This document shows positions 57 through 40,319 of a stretch of 40,319 nucleotides of DNA, piece after piece. Every line of letters begins with the position of its first letter. Within the stretch, counting starts at the first letter, position 1. The notes beneath the pieces are model-generated. The model was not told where the DNA came from. It ran no database searches and worked only from the letters and a program-made list of their open reading frames with translations. The position numbers were made by a program, and so were the translations under genes. Source of the stretch: Bacteroidaceae bacterium (lineage in GTDB: Bacteria; Bacteroidota; Bacteroidia; Bacteroidales; Bacteroidaceae); the NCBI GenBank assembly GCA_017470525.1, contig JAFUYM010000050.1:1-40319 (forward strand). Reading direction: 5' to 3'.

Positions 57-168
57 TTCTTGGGAGCGTTGCCCCAAGTCTTCGGTTTTAACTAAAGGGG
101 TGCTCGCATCGGCGGGCTGAGATGATACCCAAGAACCTGATGCAGGTAATGCTGCCGTAGGAATGATT
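57..168 (+). ncRNA. TPP (THI-box) riboswitch with upstream leader hairpin
   Basis: The conserved aptamer core runs from about 91 to 168: GGGGTGC, GGCTGAGAT, ATACCC, AACCTGAT, CAGGTAATGCTG and CGTAGGAA appear in canonical order. The next genes are a receptor, a permease and thiamine pyrophosphokinase, which fits thiamine pyrophosphate sensing. A local hairpin precedes the aptamer, CTTGGG (59-64) with CCCAAG (73-78). The same TTCTTGGG (57-64) can instead pair with CCCAAGAA (128-135) inside the aptamer core. No classic U-tract terminator is obvious before the start codon at 292, so control may be translational or through the repeat-rich spacer. Confidence 0.93.
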
Positions 169-214
169 CTCATTGAAAAAATTGAAAAGTTGAAAAACGG
201 AAAAATTGAAAAGA

Positions 215-12473: not shown

Positions 12474-12588
12474 ATTCATAATTATTGCCATTCGGATTGT
12501 TTTCCCTTTTTTTCGCATCGCGTTAGCCTAATTATGAATTATGTATTATGAATTATGAATTAAATTTCGTACCTTTGTACAAGAAAAA
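12474..12588 (+). repeat. Inverted repeat arm 1 with inward promoter
   Basis: This ~115-bp arm is repeated in inverted orientation at 14998-15112. The central 60 nt (12481-12540 against 15046-15105) differ at one position by eye, and the similarity continues through an AATTATGAATTATG tract into the promoter TACCTTTG (12570-12577). The start of the HAD gene (12598) is just inside the arm, so the transcript leader is about 15 nt. The conserved part includes GGCTAACGCGAT on the minus strand, which recurs at 36203. Confidence 0.9.
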
Positions 12589-12597
12589 TATCAGACT

Positions 12598-13350
12598 ATG
12601 GCAACTTTTTGGACAAAAAGAAACGAGGATATCGAAAATGAGAAGACTGCCATGCCGTGGGGCGAACTGTTTGTGAGAGGCGACCGAAACATTCCCCGAC
12701 GCAGACGGCTGAGGGTGGCACTTTTCGACTTGGACGGCACTCTGGTCGATACCGAGGACCAATACAGCATCTTTTGGGGTGCCACAGCACGGAAATACCG
12801 CCCCGATGTCCCCCGATTGGAATATCTCATCAAGGGTACGACCCTCACACAGATTTTTGACACTTACTTTCCCGACCCGCAATGGCAGGCTGAAATCACC
12901 AAAGGACTGAACGCCTACGAAGCACAAATGAAATATGAGTTCTACCCCGGTACGCTCGACTTTCTGAACAATCTGAAACGGAACGGAGTGAAGTGTGCCG
13001 TGGTAACCAGTTCCAACATTCCGAAAATGGAAAGCGTGAAACGGCAGATTCCCGACTTCGACTCTCTGTTCGACAAGGTGCTCACAGCCGAGGACTTCAC
13101 AGCCTCCAAACCTGCACCCGACTGCTACCTGCAAGGCGCCAAGGTGTTCGGTGCCGACATCGACGAGTGTGTGGTGTTTGAAGATGCCTACACAGGGCTG
13201 CAAGCAGGCATGGCTTCGGGCATTTTCACTTTCGGACTGACCACAGGACACACCAGGGAAGAAATCAAAGACCGCTGCAACTACGTGCTCGACGGTTTCG
13301 AAGGCATGACCTACGAGAAAATTGTGGAAATTCTGGAGGCTTCCCACTAA
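12598..13350 (+). CDS. HAD-family phosphatase (beta-phosphoglucomutase-like)
   Basis: A 250-residue HAD subfamily IA protein. Motif I is D44-L-D46-G-T (ALFDLDGTLVDTEDQ), motif II is VTSSN, the motif III lysine lies in ASKPAPD, and motif IV is VVFEDAYTGLQAG. A helical cap sits between motifs I and II, as in phosphoglucomutase or phosphoglycolate phosphatase relatives; the substrate is unknown. The first ~40 residues form a charged extension (ending NIPRRRRLR) not needed for the fold. An alternative Met at 12652 exists, but the promoter at 12570 supports 12598. The gene converges on the DUF1846 gene and shares its promoter sequence through an inverted repeat. Confidence 0.87.
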   Translation: MATFWTKRNEDIENEKTAMPWGELFVRGDRNIPRRRRLRVALFDLDGTLVDTEDQYSIFWGATARKYRPDVPRLEYLIKGTTLTQIFDTYFPDPQWQAEITKGLNAYEAQMKYEFYPGTLDFLNNLKRNGVKCAVVTSSNIPKMESVKRQIPDFDSLFDKVLTAEDFTASKPAPDCYLQGAKVFGADIDECVVFEDAYTGLQAGMASGIFTFGLTTGHTREEIKDRCNYVLDGFEGMTYEKIVEILEASH

Positions 13351-13388
13351 GAAAGTTTCTTTTCTCATTTTTTCACCTCCTATCAAGC

Positions 13389-13449
13389 GTACCCCTCGGG
13401 TACGATGCACCGTACCCGAGGGGTACACCTTGCCGCACCCGAGGGGTAC
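13389..13449. repeat. Palindromic GTACCC element, site 1
   Basis: GTACCCCTCGGGTAC (13389-13403) and its complement GTACCCGAGGGGTAC (13412-13426) form a 16-bp stem around a 6-nt loop, and each is itself a small palindrome. A partial third copy lies at 13437-13449. The same units recur at 25669-25728. This resembles a REP/BIME-type intergenic repeat just after a gene end. Confidence 0.85.
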
Positions 13450-13463
13450 GGTTTAAACACATC

Positions 13464-13524: not shown

Positions 13525-14988
13525 TCACTTTTTCTTCACAGGGTCACAAGTGAGACCACAACCCAGTTTCTTCAGAATCTTTCTATCCACCTCACCCAGC
13601 ATCACAGTGCTGTGCATCTGACAGCCACGCAACTTGGGCAGTTGTTCCAGGGCACGGCGGCAGTTGTCGTCATGCTGAGAAAGCACAGAAATCGCCACCA
13701 GCACCTCGTCGGTGTGCAGACGTGGGTTGTGTCCTCCCAGATATTCCGTCTTCGTCTTCTGGATGGGTTCAATCATACTTTGCGGAATCAGTTTGGCATC
13801 ATCGTCAATGCCCGCCAGATGCTTCATCACATTGAGCAACAATGCGGCACAGCAACCCAGCAGGTCACCCGTCTTGGAGGTGATGATGGTGCCATCCTCC
13901 ATTTCCATTGCCGCACAATGCACTCCCGTCTGCTGCTTCCGCTCGTTGGCAGCCACCGTCACCCTGCGGTCGGCTGTGGTGATTTTAGCCTGATTGAAAA
14001 GCAACTGAATCTTGCTCACCTCGCTCTCGTTGCAAGCCCCGTCAGCCAGTTTGTTGGTGGCATCGTAGTAACGGCGGATAATCTCGTCTTTTGAGGCTTG
14101 GCAACACACCTCATCATCGCTGATGCAAAAGCCCACCATGTTCACGCCCATGTCGGTCGGCGATTTGTAAGGATTCTCGCCATAGATGCCTTCGAAGAGT
14201 GCGTTCAAGACAGGGAAAATCTCGATGTCGCGGTTGTAGTTAATCGCCACCTTGCCGTAGGCATCGAAGTGGAAGGGGTCAATCATGTTTACGTCGTTCA
14301 GGTCAGCCGTGGCAGCCTCGTAAGCGATGTTCACAGGATGTTTCAGCGGCAGACTCCACACGGGGAAGGTCTCAAACTTGGCATATCCAGCATGGATGCC
14401 ACGTTTGTTCTCGCCATACAACTGACTCAGACACACTGCCATCTTGCCGCTGCCAGGACCAGGAGCCGTCACAATCACCAGCGGACGTGTGGTCTCCACA
14501 TAGTCGTTCTTGCCGAAACCTTCGTCGGAGGCTATCAGTTCCACATTGTGCGGATAGCCATCAATCAAATAATGTATATACGACTTGATGCCCATGCGCT
14601 CCAGTCGGTGACGGAACTGGTCGGCAGCACGCTGACCGTCATAATGCGTAATCACCACCGAACCCACGTAGAAGTCGCGGCTCATGAACTCGTCTCGCAG
14701 TCGCAGCACATCCTCATCATACGTGATGCCCAAGTCTGCCCTCATCTTGTTCTTCTCGATGTCCTCGGCACTAATCACAATCACAATCTCCAAACTATCC
14801 CTCAACTGGGCAAACATCCTCAACTTGCTGTCGGGCTTGAACCCCGGCAGCACCCTCGACGCATGGTGGTCGTCAAACAGTTTACCACCCAACTCCAGAT
14901 ACAGTTTGCCGTCAAACTTCGCAATCCTCTCCCTGATATGTTCCGACTGAATCTTCAGGTACTTCTCATTGTCAAATCCTATCTTCAT
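13525..14988 (-). CDS. DUF1846 family protein
   Basis: A 487-residue cytoplasmic protein, full length for DUF1846, beginning MKIGFDNEKYLKIQSEHI as is typical. Other recognisable stretches are KLYLELGGKLFDDHHASRVL, an ATP-grasp/P-loop-like APGPGSGKMAVCLSQ and CGAAL-like late segments. The biochemical function of the family is not established. The start at 14988 is 10 nt inside the inverted-repeat arm that carries its promoter (TACCTTTG on the minus strand, 15009-15016). It shares that promoter sequence with the HAD gene facing it, so the two may be expressed together. Confidence 0.88.
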   Translation of the reverse strand: MKIGFDNEKYLKIQSEHIRERIAKFDGKLYLELGGKLFDDHHASRVLPGFKPDSKLRMFAQLRDSLEIVIVISAEDIEKNKMRADLGITYDEDVLRLRDEFMSRDFYVGSVVITHYDGQRAADQFRHRLERMGIKSYIHYLIDGYPHNVELIASDEGFGKNDYVETTRPLVIVTAPGPGSGKMAVCLSQLYGENKRGIHAGYAKFETFPVWSLPLKHPVNIAYEAATADLNDVNMIDPFHFDAYGKVAINYNRDIEIFPVLNALFEGIYGENPYKSPTDMGVNMVGFCISDDEVCCQASKDEIIRRYYDATNKLADGACNESEVSKIQLLFNQAKITTADRRVTVAANERKQQTGVHCAAMEMEDGTIITSKTGDLLGCCAALLLNVMKHLAGIDDDAKLIPQSMIEPIQKTKTEYLGGHNPRLHTDEVLVAISVLSQHDDNCRRALEQLPKLRGCQMHSTVMLGEVDRKILKKLGCGLTCDPVKKK

Positions 14989-14997
14989 ACTATTTTC

Positions 14998-15112
14998 TTT
15001 TTCTTGTGCAAAGGTACGAAATTTAATTCATAATTCATAATTCACAATTCATAATTAGGCTAACGCGATACGAAAAAAAGGGAAAACAATCCGAATGGCA
15101 ATAATTATGAAT
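14998..15112 (-). repeat. Inverted repeat arm 2 with inward promoter
   Basis: This is the inverted partner of 12474-12588. It includes CAAAGGTA at 15009-15016 (TACCTTTG on the minus strand), the AT-rich heptamer tract and the 60-nt core with GGCTAACGCGATACGA. Both arms point their promoters into the enclosed 2.4 kb. Confidence 0.9.
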
Positions 15113-25652: not shown

Positions 25653-25668
25653 TGCATGGAAAGAAACG

Positions 25669-25728
25669 CACCCCTCGACTACGGTGAGGCGTACCCGAGG
25701 GGTACGGCACGGTGTACCCCTCGGGTAC
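25669..25728. repeat. Palindromic GTACCC element, site 2
   Basis: GTACCCGAGGGGTAC (25691-25705) and GTACCCCTCGGGTAC (25714-25728) form a 15-bp stem, with a partial unit (CACCCCTCG) at 25670-25678. These are the same units as at 13389-13449, again directly after a gene end. Confidence 0.85.
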
Positions 25729-25770
25729 GAATGTCAAGTAATTAAAGATTAGTTAAAAAAAGTGTACACA

Positions 25771-32618: not shown

Positions 32619-33356
32619 TCAGAACTTAACAACCACGTTGTCAAATGCAAAGTACTTAGGATGCTTCACGCCATAATCAGAACGGTCGCTTCCATCCACG
32701 TCGAATGTGAGTGATGTCACCTCGCCCAGCGAACTGAGGTCAATCTTCTTCCAAGTCTTGAGGATATTGCCGTCCTTTGCCAAGTCGAAAGTCACGGTGC
32801 CAGTTTCAGCATCGCCCTTCTTGCCGATAATCGTGACAGTCAGTTCACCGCTCTCAGCCAACGATGCAGCATAGCCGTCACCATTCTCCGTCACACCCAA
32901 CTGATAAGTGGTAGGAGACACATCCATTGACTTGATAAGACGAGCCACACCGTCAGAGAAACTGATGGAAGCAGGAGCATACACCACGGCAAAGTTGTTT
33001 GAGCCATTGCTCTTAGGCACAGCCAACTGATACTGGTAAGTGGCATGATTCGTAAGGTCATCATCAATATAATTGCTGATAGCCACACCACCTTCTGAAA
33101 AGCCGTACAAGCCGCCCCAAGCAGCAGTGAGCGAACTGGTCAGTTTTGAATTGGCATCACTCCACGAATAACTCACAGGCGTAGTGCCGCCATCGCCATA
33201 CAGCAAAGTGCCGCCATACTGAGGGTTGTCAATCAGCGCAGCCCAAGAGTCACCTTCAAAATTCAATGTACGAACATCTTCATCATCATCGCTACACGAT
33301 GTGAACGTAGCCATGCCCATGGCGAGCACAGCACAAGCCAAAAGATACTTTTTCAT
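32619..33356 (-). CDS. DUF4465 surface lipoprotein, candidate B12-binding protein
   Basis: A 245-residue lipoprotein. Cys21 (TFTSC) is followed by SDDDED, a strong acidic surface-export signal. The body is a beta-sandwich-type DUF4465 protein (LNFEGDSWAALIDNPQYGG near the start, YFAFDNVVVKF at the end). It is the first gene after the cobalamin riboswitch. I associate DUF4465 proteins with B12 loci and possibly with the B12-binding BtuH group, but this link is from memory and the symbol is left blank. The start at 33356 fits the signal peptide. Confidence 0.82.
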   Translation of the reverse strand: MKKYLLACAVLAMGMATFTSCSDDDEDVRTLNFEGDSWAALIDNPQYGGTLLYGDGGTTPVSYSWSDANSKLTSSLTAAWGGLYGFSEGGVAISNYIDDDLTNHATYQYQLAVPKSNGSNNFAVVYAPASISFSDGVARLIKSMDVSPTTYQLGVTENGDGYAASLAESGELTVTIIGKKGDAETGTVTFDLAKDGNILKTWKKIDLSSLGEVTSLTFDVDGSDRSDYGVKHPKYFAFDNVVVKF

Positions 33357-33429
33357 TTTTGTTGTTTAAATTAAAGTATGTAAATAAAAAGTTGATATGA
33401 TATCCTAACCCACGAGGACTCACTGTTTC

Positions 33430-33608
33430 AATACACAATGGCAGGTCTTCGGACTCGTCCTCCCCACCGCAAAACCTTCCCAAGCACTTCTCAAAGCCTC
33501 CTTCCCTTTTGTGGCTTCATGCTCAGTGGCAAACGTGCAGCAGAGATGGTGTGGACTCACCGCAGCGGGACTGTCGGGGATTTCCACCCCGTTCCCTTTT
33601 CATCGTCA
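33430..33608 (-). ncRNA. Cobalamin riboswitch
   Basis: Read on the minus strand, the conserved blocks come in order: AAAAGGGAACGGGGTGGAAA, TCCCCGACAGTCCCGC, GCCACTG, GGGAAGG twice, and the B12 box GTCCGAAGACCTGCC (33440-33454). It lies between a minus-strand promoter (33631) and the first gene of the B12 operon (33356). The ~70 nt between the B12 box and the start codon have no obvious U-tract terminator, which favours translational control. Confidence 0.95.
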
Positions 33609-33630
33609 TACTAACGAACCATTGCGAGTG

Positions 33631-33726
33631 CAAAGATACATAAAAATTTTGATGTATAAGAACGGCTCAATAAAAAAACATTGATTATCGGAACAAATTA
33701 TCGTCAACCTTTAGCTCGGCGTAGCC
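33631..33726 (-). repeat. Inverted repeat arm A with the B12 operon promoter
   Basis: This 96-bp segment is repeated inverted at 35117-35212 with three differences by eye. Its left edge is CAAAGATA (33631-33638), i.e. TATCTTTG on the minus strand, the -7 box for the B12 operon, with transcription starting just before the riboswitch. The arm also contains ATTATCGGAACAAATTA. Confidence 0.92.
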
Positions 33727-33752
33727 AATTAACGGTAATTTGTTCCGATAAT
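33684..33752 (-). terminator. 17-bp stem downstream of the ROK gene
   Basis: ATTATCGGAACAAATTA (33684-33700) pairs perfectly with TAATTTGTTCCGATAAT (33736-33752) around a 35-nt loop. On the minus strand the stem is followed by CAATGTTTTTTTATTG, a U-run five nt away. It could end the ROK transcript just before the B12 promoter. The long loop makes this uncertain, and an operator is possible. Confidence 0.5.
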
Positions 33753-33802
33753 TTTTGTTTCATTTTGCGATTGGCATTGCCTTCTTGCCGTCGTTCCAGG
33801 AA

Positions 33803-34777
33803 TCATTCTTCCCATCCGAGAGCCGAAGCACCAAGCACAGCGGCATTCGCGTTCATCAATCCGCTCACCAGGAACTTTGCCTTACCACGGAAAATCTTCA
33901 AGACCGCCTTGTTGTAAGACTCCTCAATCGGCTTCATGATCAAGTCGCCAGCCTTGCAAAGACCGCCAAAGAAGATGAACGCCTCAGGAGAAGAGAATGC
34001 CGCAAAGTCAGCACACGCCTCACCCAGCATCTTCCCCGTGAACTGGAAAATCTCGTTAGCCACCTCATCGCCCTTGCCAGCAGCAATCGACACATCGAGC
34101 GACTCAATCTCGTCGGCAGGCTTGTTTCTCAGCAGAGAAGGACGGTCCGTCGTCGCCAGAATCTCACGAGCCGTACGTGCCACACCCGTAGCCGAGCAAT
34201 AAGCCTCCAGACAGCCCGTGCGACCACATCCGCAAGTGCGTCCCTTCGGCCCCCTGTCCATGATGACGTGTCCCAGTTCGCCAGCAAAACCGTCGTGACC
34301 ATACAGCAACTGACCATTCACCACAATGCCCGAGCCCACACCCGTGCCGAGCGTGATGACGATAAAGTTCTTCATGCCACGGGCAGCGCCGTATGCCATC
34401 TCGCCCATTGCAGCAGCATTCGCATCATTCGTGAGGCGCACAGGCAGCCCCGCCAACTTATCAGAAAACATCTTTGCCAAAGGCACCACCCCGTCGTGTG
34501 CCCACGAAAGGTTCGGCGCATACTCAATGGTGCCGCTGTAATAATTGCCGTTCGGAGCACCGATGCCCATACCAGCAATCTTCTCGATGCCGCCCACCTG
34601 CTCAATGAGCGGTTTCAGGCACACGGTTCCAGCCTCCACAAACTCCTCGGCAGTCTTGTAAGCCTGCGTCTTGATTGAATCTTCTGCCGCGATGCTGCCA
34701 CGAGCATCCACAATTCCAAACACGGTGTTCGTACCTCCAAGGTCCACACCAATCACAAAAGGTTTCTGACTATCCAT
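33803..34777 (-). CDS. ROK-family sugar kinase (glucokinase-like)
   Basis: A 324-residue cytoplasmic kinase. The phosphate-binding D12-L-G-G-T-N, catalytic Asp118 (TNDANAAAMGE), GTGVGSG, E167-L-G-H170 and the zinc motif with C182, C184 and C189 (CGCGRTGC) are all present. ROK enzymes phosphorylate glucose or related hexoses such as N-acetylglucosamine or mannose. There is no HTH domain, so it is an enzyme rather than a repressor. A promoter at 35020 and a leader with a long hairpin precede it. It is the only gene enclosed by the 33631/35117 inverted repeat. Confidence 0.9.
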   Translation of the reverse strand: MDSQKPFVIGVDLGGTNTVFGIVDARGSIAAEDSIKTQAYKTAEEFVEAGTVCLKPLIEQVGGIEKIAGMGIGAPNGNYYSGTIEYAPNLSWAHDGVVPLAKMFSDKLAGLPVRLTNDANAAAMGEMAYGAARGMKNFIVITLGTGVGSGIVVNGQLLYGHDGFAGELGHVIMDRGPKGRTCGCGRTGCLEAYCSATGVARTAREILATTDRPSLLRNKPADEIESLDVSIAAGKGDEVANEIFQFTGKMLGEACADFAAFSSPEAFIFFGGLCKAGDLIMKPIEESYNKAVLKIFRGKAKFLVSGLMNANAAVLGASALGWEE

Positions 34778-34838
34778 ATAAAATAATTGTTTGTTAGGTT
34801 AATGATTTAAGTTTCGGGAGTTATTTTCGCCTACGGCG

Positions 34839-34964
34839 GACGAAGAAAAAACAGAAAAAAACAAGTAAAAACAGAGAAAAACATGTTCTTCGTCTAACAG
34901 AAATGAAACAAGAAAGACCTGTTTTTATTTGTTTTTACTTGTTTTTTTCTGTTTTTCTTTCGTC
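34839..34964. repeat. Long A/T-rich inverted repeat in the ROK leader
   Basis: Arms 34839-34873 and 34930-34964 (35 nt each) are complementary at about 33 positions. They are built of AACAG/AAACAAG-type A-runs and end in GACGAAG/CTTTCGTC. ACGCGAAGCGTAA follows at 34965-34977. Similar sequence occurs at 36363-36416 and 39897-40020, so this is a dispersed repeat. It would form a hairpin in the ROK mRNA leader. Confidence 0.85.
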
Positions 34965-35019
34965 ACGCGAAGCGTAAAAAGACACATCCGAAACTTGAGT
35001 TAATGATTGATTGATGGGA

Positions 35020-35027
35020 CAAAGATA
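35020..35027 (-). promoter_or_regulatory. -7 box for the ROK kinase gene
   Basis: CAAAGATA on the + strand is TATCTTTG on the minus strand, about 240 nt before the kinase start. Between 34778 and 35235 there are this promoter, the hairpin above, a TTACGCTTCG copy at 35035 and inverted repeat arm B; no gene is seen. Confidence 0.6.
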
Positions 35028-35116
35028 CGCTTTTTTACGCTTCGTGCCTTTATAAAAACAAAAAAAGATAAAAAAAGACAAGAAAAAACATTCTATTTTG
35101 TTTTCTTTTGTTTTTT

Positions 35117-35212
35117 GGCGACACCGAGCCAAAGGTTGACGATAATTTGTTCCGATAATCAATGTTTTTTTATTGAGCCGTTCTTATACATCAAAATTTT
35201 TATGTATCTTTG
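35117..35212 (+). repeat. Inverted repeat arm B with the esterase promoter
   Basis: Inverted partner of 33631-33726 (93 of 96 positions by eye). Its right edge is TATCTTTG (35205-35212), the -7 box that would drive the esterase gene starting at 35236. Both arms therefore direct transcription outward from the enclosed ROK gene. Confidence 0.92.
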
Positions 35213-35235
35213 CCCCATCAAAACCTGAAACAACA

Positions 35236-36090
35236 ATGAAAAAGATTCTCCTTTTTATGCTCAGCATCTTCAGTGCCTTCATGGCACAAGCACAACAACC
35301 CGCGTTCGACATCGACCTCTGGCAAAACGGCTTGCCCAACAGCAACGGCATCGACAAGACCCTGCCCTACGATGACTCCAAACAAAACTTCAAGCCCTCC
35401 ATCCGCGTCTTCCTGCCCGAGGCATCCAAAGCCACAGGCAGAGCCGTCGTGTGCTGCCCCGGCGGAGGCTACAGCCACCTGGCAACCGACCACGAAGGCT
35501 ACGACTGGGCACCCTACTTCAACGAACGCGGCATCGCCTTCATCGTCCTGAAATACCGCATGCCACACGCCAACACCGACGTGCCCATCAGCGACGCCAA
35601 AGAAGCACTTCGCATCGTCAGGGAAAACGCACAAAAATGGAACATCGACCCCAAGAAAGTAGGCATCATGGGCTCATCAGCAGGCGGCCACCTCGCCTCC
35701 ACCGTCGCCACCCACAGCGACCCGCAGACAGCCCCAGCCTTCCAGATACTCTTCTACCCCGTCATCACCTTCGACTACAAATACACCCACAAAGGCAGCC
35801 GCCACGGACTCATCGGCGAACAGGCAACCCAAGAAATGGTGGACCTCTACAGCAACGAAAAGCAGGTGACCACCCAAACGCCACCCGCCATCATGCTCCT
35901 CAGCGACGACGACACCGTAGTGCCCTCGCCCAACAGCGTGAACTACTACCTTGCCCTGAAGCGCAACCACATCAAAGCCACCATGCACATCTATCCCTCT
36001 GGCGGCCACGGTTGGGGCAACCGCACCAACTTCAAATACCACAACGAAATGCTGGCAGACCTCAGCGCATGGCTGGAAACCATCAAGTAA
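35236..36090 (+). CDS. Secreted alpha/beta hydrolase (carbohydrate-esterase-like)
   Basis: A 284-residue alpha/beta hydrolase with signal peptide (MKKILLFMLSIFSAFMAQAQ). The oxyanion region is CPGGGYSHLA. The nucleophile is Ser148 (GSSAGGHLAS), the acid lies in SDDDTVVP (about 226), and the base is His258 (GGHGWG). This pattern is seen in xylan acetyl esterases and related BD-FAE-like polysaccharide deacetylases. The start at 35236 gives the signal peptide and lies 24 nt after the promoter. Codons end strongly in C. It stands alone; no glycoside hydrolase is adjacent. Confidence 0.87.
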   Translation: MKKILLFMLSIFSAFMAQAQQPAFDIDLWQNGLPNSNGIDKTLPYDDSKQNFKPSIRVFLPEASKATGRAVVCCPGGGYSHLATDHEGYDWAPYFNERGIAFIVLKYRMPHANTDVPISDAKEALRIVRENAQKWNIDPKKVGIMGSSAGGHLASTVATHSDPQTAPAFQILFYPVITFDYKYTHKGSRHGLIGEQATQEMVDLYSNEKQVTTQTPPAIMLLSDDDTVVPSPNSVNYYLALKRNHIKATMHIYPSGGHGWGNRTNFKYHNEMLADLSAWLETIK

Positions 36091-36101: not shown

Positions 36102-36362
36102 TATGTTTATTTGACTACGAATTTCACGAATTTGACGAATTTTTCCATGCGGATTGGAAAAACAATTGCCCGAAGCCGCAAGCGGCAACTAATTTCACGA
36201 ATGGCTAACGCGATATGAGGTGCGAACGGGATGGTGTTCGTATAACACATTCCCTGCCCGCAAGGCAAAATTCGTCAAATTCGTAGTGCAGTAGGCACTT
36301 CGTGTAATACCGTCCTTGTCCGCATGGCAAAATTCGTGAAATTCGTAGTTTAAATAAACATG
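36102..36362. repeat. ACGAATTT-repeat stem-loop region
   Basis: The spacer after the esterase gene contains inverted arms 36102-36153 and 36319-36362 (shared ATGTTTATTT, ACTACGAATTTCACGAATTT and CCATGCGGA), the left arm having one extra 9-nt GACGAATTT unit. A third copy in the same orientation as the right arm lies at about 36255-36287 (GCAAGGCAAAATTCGTCAAA). GGCTAACGCGATA at 36203-36215 matches part of the 12474/15112 repeats. No gene is seen in 36091-36425. Confidence 0.8.
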
Positions 36363-38060: not shown

Positions 38061-38205
38061 ACGCTCTTATCTCTCCCCATATCATTATTTATAGATGCCC
38101 CCACCGTGCCGAGCGGTTCCGCCGCTCGTCCTCCCCTTCTCGCCCCTCAGCTCCTTCCCCTCTCCGCCGCTCCTCTCCTCCTTCTCCCCCCACCAAAAAT
38201 CCCCA

Positions 38206-38213
38206 CAAAGGTA
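38206..38213 (-). promoter_or_regulatory. -7 box for the ABC exporter gene
   Basis: CAAAGGTA on the + strand is TACCTTTG on the minus strand, about 145 nt before the exporter start. The rest of the 38061-38376 spacer is very C-rich on the plus strand and holds CACCAAAAATCC (38191 and 38309) and a GTTACCC pair (38271, 38283). Confidence 0.6.
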
Positions 38214-38356
38214 CTACTTTCTTTCCGTCCCCCCAAAAAAAACGCAAAAATTCCCAACCACCACCAATTTGTTACCCATTCTGTTACCCAAATGCTATGT
38301 TAACCCCCCACCAAAAATCCAACAGCCACCCTCATGGCTATTTCCCATTTATTCAC

Positions 38357-38364
38357 TACCTTTG
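38357..38364 (+). promoter_or_regulatory. -7 box for the integrase gene
   Basis: TACCTTTG (38357-38364) lies 12 nt before the ATG at 38377, so the mRNA would be nearly leaderless. It fixes the start at 38377 rather than the upstream in-frame ATG at 38095. Confidence 0.7.
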
Positions 38365-38376
38365 CTAAAAAAAATT

Positions 38377-39564
38377 ATGAAAACAGACATCAAACAACCC
38401 AAAACCAAAGAACCCGTAAGACTACGGTTCAAAAAACTCTCCAACAACAACCTCTCCATCTATCTTGACATCTACGCCAACGGAGAACGCAGTTACGAGT
38501 TCCTCCACCTCTACCTCATCCCCGAAGTCACCCCCGACGCCCGAATCATCAACCAGCACGTCCTCAAAGCAGCCCAAGCCATCAAGGCGCGGCGCATCAT
38601 CGACATCGCCAACGGACAGGCAGGCATCGGCTACAACGGGCAACTCTCCCGAATGAGAATCCACGAATACCTCCTCCACCACATCGAAAACAGCAAAAAG
38701 ACCCACCGGGGCAACAGTTACGTCACCTCCTGCAGCAACATGTACAACCACCTCGCCCAATACCTCGGCAAAAGAGCCAGGACCCTCAAAATGAGAGACA
38801 TCGACCTCGAAATCTGCAAAGGATTCGCCAAACACCTCAAGCACGCCCGCTCCTACACCGGCAAGCCCCTCTCAGGCGTCACCGCCTACCACTACTTCTG
38901 CTCCTTCAAAAGCATGCTCAACGAAGCAGCCATCGAGCAAGCCATCCCCACCAACCCCGTACTCCACATGAGGAAAAACGAAATGCCCCAACGCCCCCTC
39001 GTCACCAAGGAATTTCTCGACGCCGACGAAGTCGTCCGCCTCGCCAAAACCGCCTCCACCCACCTCCAGGTCAAGCAAGCCTTCCTCTTCAGTTGCTTCA
39101 CCGGGCTCCGCCTCAGCGACGTCCGCCAACTCAAATGGCGCAACATCACCAAGACCGACGGCATCCTCCGCTACTCCATCACCATGCAGAAAACCCAAGA
39201 ACCCATCACCAACAAACTCAACGCCGAAGCCATCAAATGGCTCCCGGCAAAAAAAGGCAAGCCCAACGAACTCGTCTTCAACCTCCCCTCCACCACCACC
39301 ATCGAAAAAGCAATCGCCCGGTGGTCGCGCAACGCCCACATCCTCAAGCACGTCACCTTCCACACCGCCCGCCACAGTTATGCCACCATGGCACTCATGG
39401 CAGGCACCGACCTCTACACCATCTCCAAACTCCTCGGGCACCGCGACATCAAAACCACCACCATCTACGCCGCCGTCATCGATGCCGCCCGCGACAACGC
39501 CATCGACAACATCTCCCAACTCTACCAGACCCACCTCAAGCAGCACCCCCGCATCCCCCTCTGA
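38377..39564 (+). CDS. Tyrosine recombinase/integrase (Bacteroidetes type)
   Basis: A 395-residue site-specific recombinase. It has an N-terminal arm-binding-like region (about 1-100), a SAM-like core-binding domain (about 95-195, IHEYLLHHIE to MLNEAAIEQAIPTNP) and a complete catalytic domain. The catalytic residues are R245 (FTGLRLSDV), K272 (MQKTQ), H329-x2-R332 (HTARHSYAT), H355 (LLGHRDIKT) and the nucleophile Y364 (TTIYA). Related proteins integrate conjugative transposons or invert promoters. No transfer, excisionase or cargo genes are visible up to the window end, so its element either lies beyond 40319 or is lost. Confidence 0.92.
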   Translation: MKTDIKQPKTKEPVRLRFKKLSNNNLSIYLDIYANGERSYEFLHLYLIPEVTPDARIINQHVLKAAQAIKARRIIDIANGQAGIGYNGQLSRMRIHEYLLHHIENSKKTHRGNSYVTSCSNMYNHLAQYLGKRARTLKMRDIDLEICKGFAKHLKHARSYTGKPLSGVTAYHYFCSFKSMLNEAAIEQAIPTNPVLHMRKNEMPQRPLVTKEFLDADEVVRLAKTASTHLQVKQAFLFSCFTGLRLSDVRQLKWRNITKTDGILRYSITMQKTQEPITNKLNAEAIKWLPAKKGKPNELVFNLPSTTTIEKAIARWSRNAHILKHVTFHTARHSYATMALMAGTDLYTISKLLGHRDIKTTTIYAAVIDAARDNAIDNISQLYQTHLKQHPRIPL

Positions 39565-39725: not shown

Positions 39726-39896
39726 CTGTCTCTTCCACCCTCCCCTCACCCCTCCACCCATCCCCCTCCCCACGGTGCTTCCACCCCCGCACAGAAGATT
39801 ATTTATCGCAGAATGTAATCTCACAATACCCATCCTTCCAATCCCTTTAATCCTTCCAATCCAGCCGCCTCGCGGTGATGTTTTTACCGCAAGCGG

Positions 39897-40020
39897 TCTT
39901 TAGAAAAACCAAAAAAACAAGAAAAAACCAACAAAAACAAAGGCACTTTTTTGAGAACATGACGGTTTTTTGAGGTTTTCTTTGGTTTTTTCTGGTTTTT
40001 CTAAAGACGCGAAGCGTTAA
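39897..40020. repeat. Long A/T-rich inverted repeat with GCGAAGCG cap
   Basis: TCTTTAGAAAAACC-type sequence at 39897-39929 is the imperfect complement of GGTTTTTTCTGGTTTTTCT-type sequence at 39974-40007, followed by ACGCGAAGCGTTAA (40007-40020). It has the same architecture as 34839-34977. Confidence 0.8.
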
Positions 40021-40319
40021 GAAGAAAAAATCAAAAATTCCTGCGATTTCTGCGTGAAATAACCTCCGTGTTTTCCATGATTTCCACCCCAAAAATCCAC
40101 CCCTTTTGTTACCCCCTTGTTACCCACGCCATCCTCCCCCGCCCCAATCCCCCTATCCATCGGCATTCCAGAAAACCCTTAACATAGGGGGCGTTGTAAA
40201 CCCCTGTGTGTCCCGGGGGCAGGAAAGTGCGGCGGGGAGGGGAGTCCGGAGGGAGGATTGAATGGAATTTTGAAGATTTTGTGAGGAGGAAGGTGTGTGG
40301 GGGAACTTTGGGATATGTG
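40021..40319. other. Non-coding right end of the window
   Basis: No supported gene is seen. The segment holds ACCCCAAAAATCCACCCC (about 40086-40103) and two GTTACCC units (40108 and 40119), similar to those upstream of the integrase, then a G-rich stretch to the end. It could belong to an integrase-linked element or attachment region, but this cannot be settled here. Confidence 0.4.

Follow-up and report, generated by a model that had tools for sequence, protein, structure and literature searches.

Dispersed palindromic repeats with promoter-like ends in a Bacteroidaceae genome and their relatives bearing nuclease-like genes

The stretch of DNA analysed here (the window) comprises 40,319 nucleotides of contig JAFUYM010000050.1 from a Bacteroidaceae bacterium (assembly GCA_017470525.1). 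Between two inverted repeat arms lies a ROK family gene (33803..34777, minus strand), with a B12 operon beyond the left arm and an esterase gene (BD-FAE/alpha-beta hydrolase; 35239..36090, plus strand) beyond the right. The B12 operon opens with a cobalamin riboswitch leader (33423..33638, minus strand), identified by RF00174 with 99.9 bits against a gathering score of 31.5, the model match overlapping a −7 box at its 5′ edge; the first gene past the riboswitch encodes a DUF4465 protein (32619..33356, minus strand), and genes with DUF5074 and PKD domains come next. The −7 box of ROK, TATCTTTGT (35019..35027, minus strand), which has similar boxes in relatives, lies upstream of a second palindrome. 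A TPP riboswitch (RF00059) is present at the left end of the window (86–180).

A preliminary description of this locus reported the inverted arms at 33631–33726 and 35117–35212 as identical at 93 of 96 positions, each with an outward promoter-like end, and our analysis confirms both observations. The match reaches to 33630–33733 and 35110–35213 (99 of 104 positions identical, 5 differences), and the E value of the arm-against-arm BLAST comparison (2.1e-40) is far past chance. The left repeat copy (33630..33760, minus strand) consists of the left arm and an inner half: its promoter end faces the B12 operon, with the −7 box TATCTTTGC (33630..33638, minus strand) reading into the operon leader, and is followed by a core palindrome ATTATCGGAACAAATTATCG...CGGTAATTTGTTCCGATAAT (33684..33752), within which lies a sub-motif AACCTTTAGCTCGGCGTAGCCAATT (33706..33730) that is more widespread in the genus, and by a far end close to the 3′ end of ROK. 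The right copy (the right arm; 35110..35213, plus strand) turns its promoter end to the esterase, with the −7 box TATCTTTGC (35205..35213, plus strand) reading into that gene and pointing, like its counterpart, away from ROK; its inward extent, judged by eye, may reach ~35049. Beyond the arms the inner parts are unlike, with both core halves in the left copy and one in the right.

The arm pair represents two members of a dispersed family rather than a special device of two copies. BLAST with the 96-bp arm gives 57 matches in its own assembly (G000; 3.24 Mb, 83 contigs, 83% complete), where the 15-base core CGGAACAAATTATCG has 50 matches at no more than one mismatch and its reversed control none; one of the 50 (C4, L163) is unlike an element. 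Inspection by eye indicates a common plan, in which a promoter end CAAAnnTACATAAAAATC-TGATTTATAAGCC...CATAAAAAACAT, present in many copies, leads to ATTATCGGAACAAATTATCG, often followed by nested inverted layers with hairpins and then by the mirror core; many copies also have an end TTTTTGTTTTATAGAG on the far side. The promoter end (~45 bp) lies outside the inverted core and is absent from some copies (e.g. L018 and L037). Copies at four places (L014/L015, L027, L029 and L161, of which L014/L015 may be one place split over two contig ends) share by eye a ~55-bp insert at the same point, so that the repeat unit seems to copy whole. Among 45 same-genus genomes examined, the exact core occurs in 38 copies in this genome, in 1–4 copies in 7 genomes and in none of the other 37, while the sub-motif AACCTTTAGCTCGGCGTAGCCAATT is spread more widely, with 19 of 41 genomes, all of the same genus, matching a 140-bp query, many of them at the sub-motif alone. 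These copies are short, multi-copy and non-coding and carry terminal or near-terminal inverted repeats, which is the form of miniature inverted-repeat transposable elements (MITEs). Among the transposase families covered, no autonomous parent with the same ends was found; the sole gene found between such arms is of the GxxExxY family described below, which is not a known transposase. The ends of the arm family are uncertain for the purpose of recognising target-site duplications; in one copy (L161), TGTACATTT was seen by eye on both sides.

Compensatory changes support a hairpin in the half-element, with 95.8% of 120 cells paired and 26 cells changed on both sides. This level of pairing was reached by 0 of 500 shuffles, and slid versions did not exceed 52.5%, while two of the five measures were unremarkable (117/500 and 168/500 shuffles as high). 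The rows comprised 17 of 22 matches and three from a separate copy set; L027 and L161 were dropped as duplicates of a used row, L217 as a near-duplicate, and L083 and L268 as rows without the hairpin or its foot, an omission that favours the result. For the left core, the single-stranded DNA fold of 33676–33760 gave a z of −6.5.

Further palindromes occur in the window. The ROK leader contains a member of a second family (188 bp; 34809..34996), which is likewise dispersed (75 BLAST matches) and is flanked here by a perfect 10-bp direct repeat, GTTAATGATT, at 34798..34807 and 34999..35008 (both plus strand). A flanking direct repeat is present in two of six distinct two-ended copies of this family (10 bp in the window and 9 bp in L279), a length of 9 bp being reached by 0.1% of random pairs. 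A third family (ACCGCAAGCGGTCTTTAGAAAAACC type; 39881..40023) resembles, by eye, the arms of a gene-bearing relative on contig C42 of the same genome. Another inverted pair (12474–12600 and 14986–15112) contains AATTATG/AATTCAT arrays beside a TACCTTTG −7 box, a style that also brackets a four-helix gene in L334. Palindromes of CGTACCCGAGGGGTACG type lie at 13385–13450 and 25664–25729, with similar stretches downstream of ROK in L118 and L129, and at 36237–36349 a 51-bp direct repeat made with AAATTCGT units is present twice, similar repeats being found close to some GxxExxY genes.

In many copies of the arm family the promoter end finishes in a Bacteroidetes −7 box (TAnnTTTGC) reading into the neighbouring gene, in agreement with the TAnnTTTG consensus given for the housekeeping promoter of Bacteroides (PMC7366714); no clear −33 TTTG was seen by eye at the arm promoter ends. 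A search for the promoter end at 33 loci of the own genome, which overlap in part, returned 23 matches, probably including one or two by chance, and 20 of the 23 have the start of an ORF (at least 70 codons) within 260 bp downstream. On the basis of the TAnnTTTG match and this position, the repeat copies are assumed to act as promoters in vivo. From reading their translations, we take the genes concerned to include prs, guaA, lepA, hisS, a maoC-type gene and cytidine deaminase. When the regions upstream of prs, guaA, lepA, maoC and aroB orthologues in same-genus genomes were compared by eye, a recognisable, diverged element was present at 2 of 12 guaA genes (G059 and G014, with perhaps a remnant in G005) and 1 of 12 prs genes (G057), and none was recognisable at lepA (0/11), maoC (0/9) or aroB (0/8). 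For prs, guaA and maoC, the leader below the −7 box is alike at filled and empty sites and most relatives have other DNA above the box, while the upstream arrangement of lepA differs in most relatives; the core is absent upstream of maoC, where the likeness of the flank between G000 and G007 may be a mere T-rich terminator tail. These comparisons show the repeat upstream of several genes to occupy a place where relatives have other DNA.

The far end of the repeat provides a further indication of its placement. Among 10 distinct ends (16 were found, of which six promoter-side ends were left out), TATAAAAC abuts TANNTTTSC with at most one mismatch in nine, compared with 2.4% of random 16-mers, and at guaA the stretch beyond this −7-like relic is similar to what lies above the native box in G007. 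From the relic and the guaA likeness, we think that the repeat probably sits between an old, decayed host −7 box and its own −7 box, although the relic may be part of the element itself. Duplication of the host box is unsupported, since many host boxes have other bases than the promoter end at the two positions between TA and TTTGC.

Among the best 80 of 530 ROK relatives, the best are from metagenome-assembled Bacteroidaceae and Prevotellaceae, many from rumen or other herbivore guts, the closest (93% identical) coming from roe deer rumen. Within this set the esterase stands beside ROK in 17 loci and is divergent from it in 17 of 17, as in the window. The gap between the two genes is 461 bp in the window, 101–190 bp in 16 of the 17 relatives and 1,063 bp in L121; none of these 17 gaps contains an arm match at E 0.01, and two weak matches lie outside them (L082 and L092). 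In none of the same 80 loci is there a match at E 1e-15 to the DUF4465, DUF5074 and PKD proteins of the window's B12 operon, and the genes downstream of ROK vary across the 19 loci compared, so that the left arm stands at a junction unseen in relatives. A scan of 13 DUF4465 loci identified a cobalamin riboswitch at four of them (that of the window, L172, L180 and L181); by eye, L172 and L180 have the equivalent −7 box without an arm, and a box equivalent to that of the left copy is present in G020 and G041. In the relatives examined, neither arm was seen at the corresponding position, and the pattern named in advance as speaking against the earlier interpretation, conservation of each arm with its own gene elsewhere, was thus not observed. 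In three of the ROK relatives (L093, L150 and L152) ROK itself is bracketed by another kind of inverted repeat, and in L089, L090 and L092–L094 arrays of seven-base or similar units lie upstream of ROK near −7 boxes.

Each of three palindrome families of the window (the arm family, the second and the third) has a relative in the same genome that bears a gene. The arm core brackets an ORF on C45/C54 (probably a single locus, with one base different) that matches PF13366 (PDDEXK_3) and TIGR04256 (GxxExxY), and two more GxxExxY ORFs are bracketed on C1 by second-family arms and on C42 by arms resembling the third palindrome, all three ORFs being assigned to TIGR04256. All 29 GxxExxY rows compared keep the D, E and K of the nuclease motif unchanged, so that these proteins have the conserved D...ExK residues of PD-(D/E)XK nucleases. 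The core-bracketed GxxExxY gene occupies one orthologous locus in G000, G046, G013 and G002, which is expected from vertical inheritance and counts against movement of the gene-bearing copy.

For bracketing, the 150-bp flanks of each ORF were compared and their best inverted repeat was scored, with a score of at least 26 taken as positive. On this measure, 21 of 35 GxxExxY loci were bracketed (14 fell below the line), as were 22 of 29 loci of the four-helix 23S-IVP family (PF05635), which has no match in G000, and 19 of 25 loci of DUF559 (PF04480). For each family a part of the matches in the genus was retrieved, and of the retrieved loci 35 of 36 were tested for GxxExxY and 29 of 30 for the four-helix family, one each being dropped for short or masked flanks, and 25 of 30 for DUF559, from which L349 and L370 (interrupted by a stop codon in the matching region) and L366–L368 (weak matches, long ORFs) were dropped. 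The control, genes of the 80 ROK-relative loci (best 80 of 530), gave 12 of 676, and four of these 12 belong to the same three families (L112 and L113, DUF559; L084, four-helix; L127, GxxExxY); profile models built here find exactly those four in the 80 loci, and all four were positive. Three of the other eight control positives are ROK genes (L093, L150 and L152). None of the 28 window genes was bracketed, and neighbouring genes in the tested loci gave 17 of 149; four of these positives are target genes at contig ends (L369, L293, L323 and L319), and subtracting them leaves 13 of 145. Fisher p values for GxxExxY, four-helix and DUF559 were 6e-23, 3e-27 and 3e-24 against 12/676, and 7e-9, 5e-12 and 7e-11 against 17/149, all of them too strong because some loci are orthologous: L202/L203 (one base different) and L313, and L199/L200, are non-independent, and L328/L329, L315/L316, L341/L343 and L364/L365 probably so. 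With flanks of 300 bp and a cutoff score of 28, the counts were 20 of 34 versus 12 of 651.

The style of repeat tracks the protein, with seven-base arrays around four-helix genes, GGGAGGG-type palindromes around DUF559 genes and hairpin, CACAGAG or CACGAATT types around GxxExxY genes. Direct repeats just outside 56 gene-bearing elements of the three families (19 + 19 + 18) showed no clear excess, repeats of at least 6 bp occurring in 2/19, 3/19 and 3/18 elements compared with 7.6%, 7.3% and 3.6% of mismatched pairs. On plasmids of other taxa (all 8 GxxExxY matches and 8 of 26 four-helix records), bracketing was positive for 2 of 8 GxxExxY loci, both from Bacteroidota (the Bacteroidota loci L375 and L377 were negative), and for 6 of 8 four-helix loci (five Cyanobacteria and one Treponema), with 6 of 240 mismatched flanks positive in the control. 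Four loci of the plasmid set (L381, L385, L388 and L389) have notable neighbours: fabD and fabG flank a GxxExxY gene, while the pairs hsdS and hsdR, cas2 and cas1, and drmD and pglX enclose four-helix genes or matches.

Two functional proposals of the preliminary description, shared control of B12 uptake and esterase and inversion of the ROK segment, are unsupported given the operon's own riboswitch, the dispersed family and the uniformly divergent relatives. That a recombinase flips the ROK region between the arms would fit the long, near-perfect inverted repeats and the tyrosine recombinase-like gene at 38095–39564, but we consider it extremely improbable, as the 17 relatives with both genes (among the best 80 of 530) have a single orientation, the arms belong to a dispersed family, and recombination between them would change the direction of neither promoter. 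The two outward promoters are one family promoter, which also stands upstream of many other genes, and the B12 operon is additionally preceded by the RF00174 riboswitch; a regulon of B12 operon and esterase was rejected on these grounds. In its wider form, with the core palindrome as operator and the promoter end marking the genes of one regulator, the regulon explanation could draw on a nearly constant distance from core to −7 box and on several downstream genes that look housekeeping or nucleotide-related (prs, guaA and cytidine deaminase). It is very unlikely all the same: nested palindromes and inserts vary among copies, maoC has no core upstream, most orthologues in relatives are without the repeat, and the exact core was found in 8 of 45 genomes. 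The preliminary description also raised recent duplication or gene conversion. The two arms, ~1.4 kb apart, are mutually closest copies (98.8% over 80 bp; next best 85–86%), as expected from an origin of the pair by inverted duplication or gene conversion in place around ROK, but two unlinked copies, one on C69 and one on C63, reach 98.7% identity and the inner parts of the pair differ, so local duplication as sole route does not stand and its preference over two separate insertions is rather doubtful. The pair is real, but it is a local view of a larger palindromic-repeat system with a promoter end and a nuclease-gene-bearing relative.

What this system represents is best weighed between two explanations. 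Our preferred reading, to which we assign a probability of roughly 0.7, is that the arms are two copies of a dispersed palindromic repeat, many copies of which have a promoter-like end, that has GxxExxY-bearing relatives and whose gene-less copies would be non-autonomous derivatives spread by copying. We propose that these are TIRtron-like elements in which nuclease-like proteins replace tyrosine transposases. The mobilising agent might, as a candidate that we hold to be less likely than not, be GxxExxY itself or host repair that follows from its cuts; the mobility of the repeat, its promoter activity and the part played by GxxExxY are inferred. The repeat could also be an ordinary MITE moved by an unrelated transposase, with GxxExxY, DUF559 and four-helix genes as passengers or late insertions into palindromes. 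Promoter-bearing MITEs are described (PMC10969869, PMC4596501), the 9–10 bp direct repeats in the second family are as expected after a staggered cut, and the GxxExxY-bearing arms of the first family have apparently not moved. This explanation has a real though lesser chance: it sits poorly with GxxExxY-bearing relatives for three palindrome families of one window, with the same bracketing in three protein families, and with the sole Y1 transposase-like gene found in a search of the genome, which has no flanking inverted repeat.

The preferred TIRtron-like reading may be extended, tentatively and with the odds against it, to one broad selfish palindromic class of which GxxExxY, DUF559 and four-helix 23S-IVP would be the coding parts, each with its own repeat style. 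A loop-borne nuclease or ring-forming protein would replace the transposase, gene-less derivatives would spread, here settling at −7 boxes as promoters, and the class would include as special cases the intervening sequences of 23S rRNA and the heptamer arrays between genes. If true, widespread small proteins without an assigned role (GxxExxY, DUF559 and four-helix) would be parts of mobile palindromes, much intergenic repeat DNA of gut Bacteroidales would gain a source, the repeat would supply promoters to conserved genes while keeping each gene's own leader in place, and related elements outside rRNA would offer a test of the long-standing question by what means the intervening sequences of 23S rRNA move. 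The GxxExxY-bearing palindromes hint at a little-described kind of mobile element. Among the literature matches listed, a set mostly outside subscription journals, including those on palindromic repeats of Prevotella, no title or displayed abstract reports a link of four-helix or DUF559 proteins to inverted or palindromic repeats, and the cited portion of PMC8934634 mentions GxxExxY in a context unrelated to palindromic repeats.

Several known systems resemble the elements described here in part. Heptamer direct repeats (TAACTGA) are described from Beggiatoaceae, Cyanobacteria and Bacteroidetes (PMC4679880), and intergenic seven-base arrays likewise surround four-helix genes here and form the 12474/15112 pair, whereas the arm family itself is not of the heptamer type and the cited portion of that account names no protein partner. 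The 23S rRNA intervening sequences form stem-loops whose loop holds an S23 (four-helix) ORF, preceded in Coxiella by heptamers (PMC4990558) that resemble those around four-helix genes here; they share with our elements terminal inverted repeats forming a stem and a small ORF in the loop. As described there, however, they lie inside 23S rRNA and are excised from RNA, while the elements here lie between protein genes, the Rfam matches of the window include no 23S rRNA, and the arm family is associated with GxxExxY. Correia elements and the BrickBuilt elements of Porphyromonas, both promoter-bearing MITEs (PMC10969869, PMC4596501), are, like the present repeats, short, multi-copy, intergenic and palindromic, with outward promoters near genes; as far as those accounts extend, their sequence is unrelated, and the present family differs in a promoter end that stops at the −7 box by the host leader and in having gene-bearing relatives. 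Membership of the RAYT/REP system itself was rejected, as the one Y1-like gene in G000 (C72) is not flanked by the repeats, its best flanking inverted repeat scoring 15 with 150-bp and 21 with 300-bp flanks. TIRtrons and REPtrons, in which RAYT-like (TIRYT) genes lie between inverted repeats and copies are dispersed (PMC3733652), differ on that description in that the gene here is a GxxExxY PDDEXK_3 gene rather than a tyrosine transposase gene and the repeat often has a promoter end, but with a gene between inverted repeats, dispersed gene-less copies and hairpin-forming palindromes, TIRtrons are the closest in plan to the elements of this genome.
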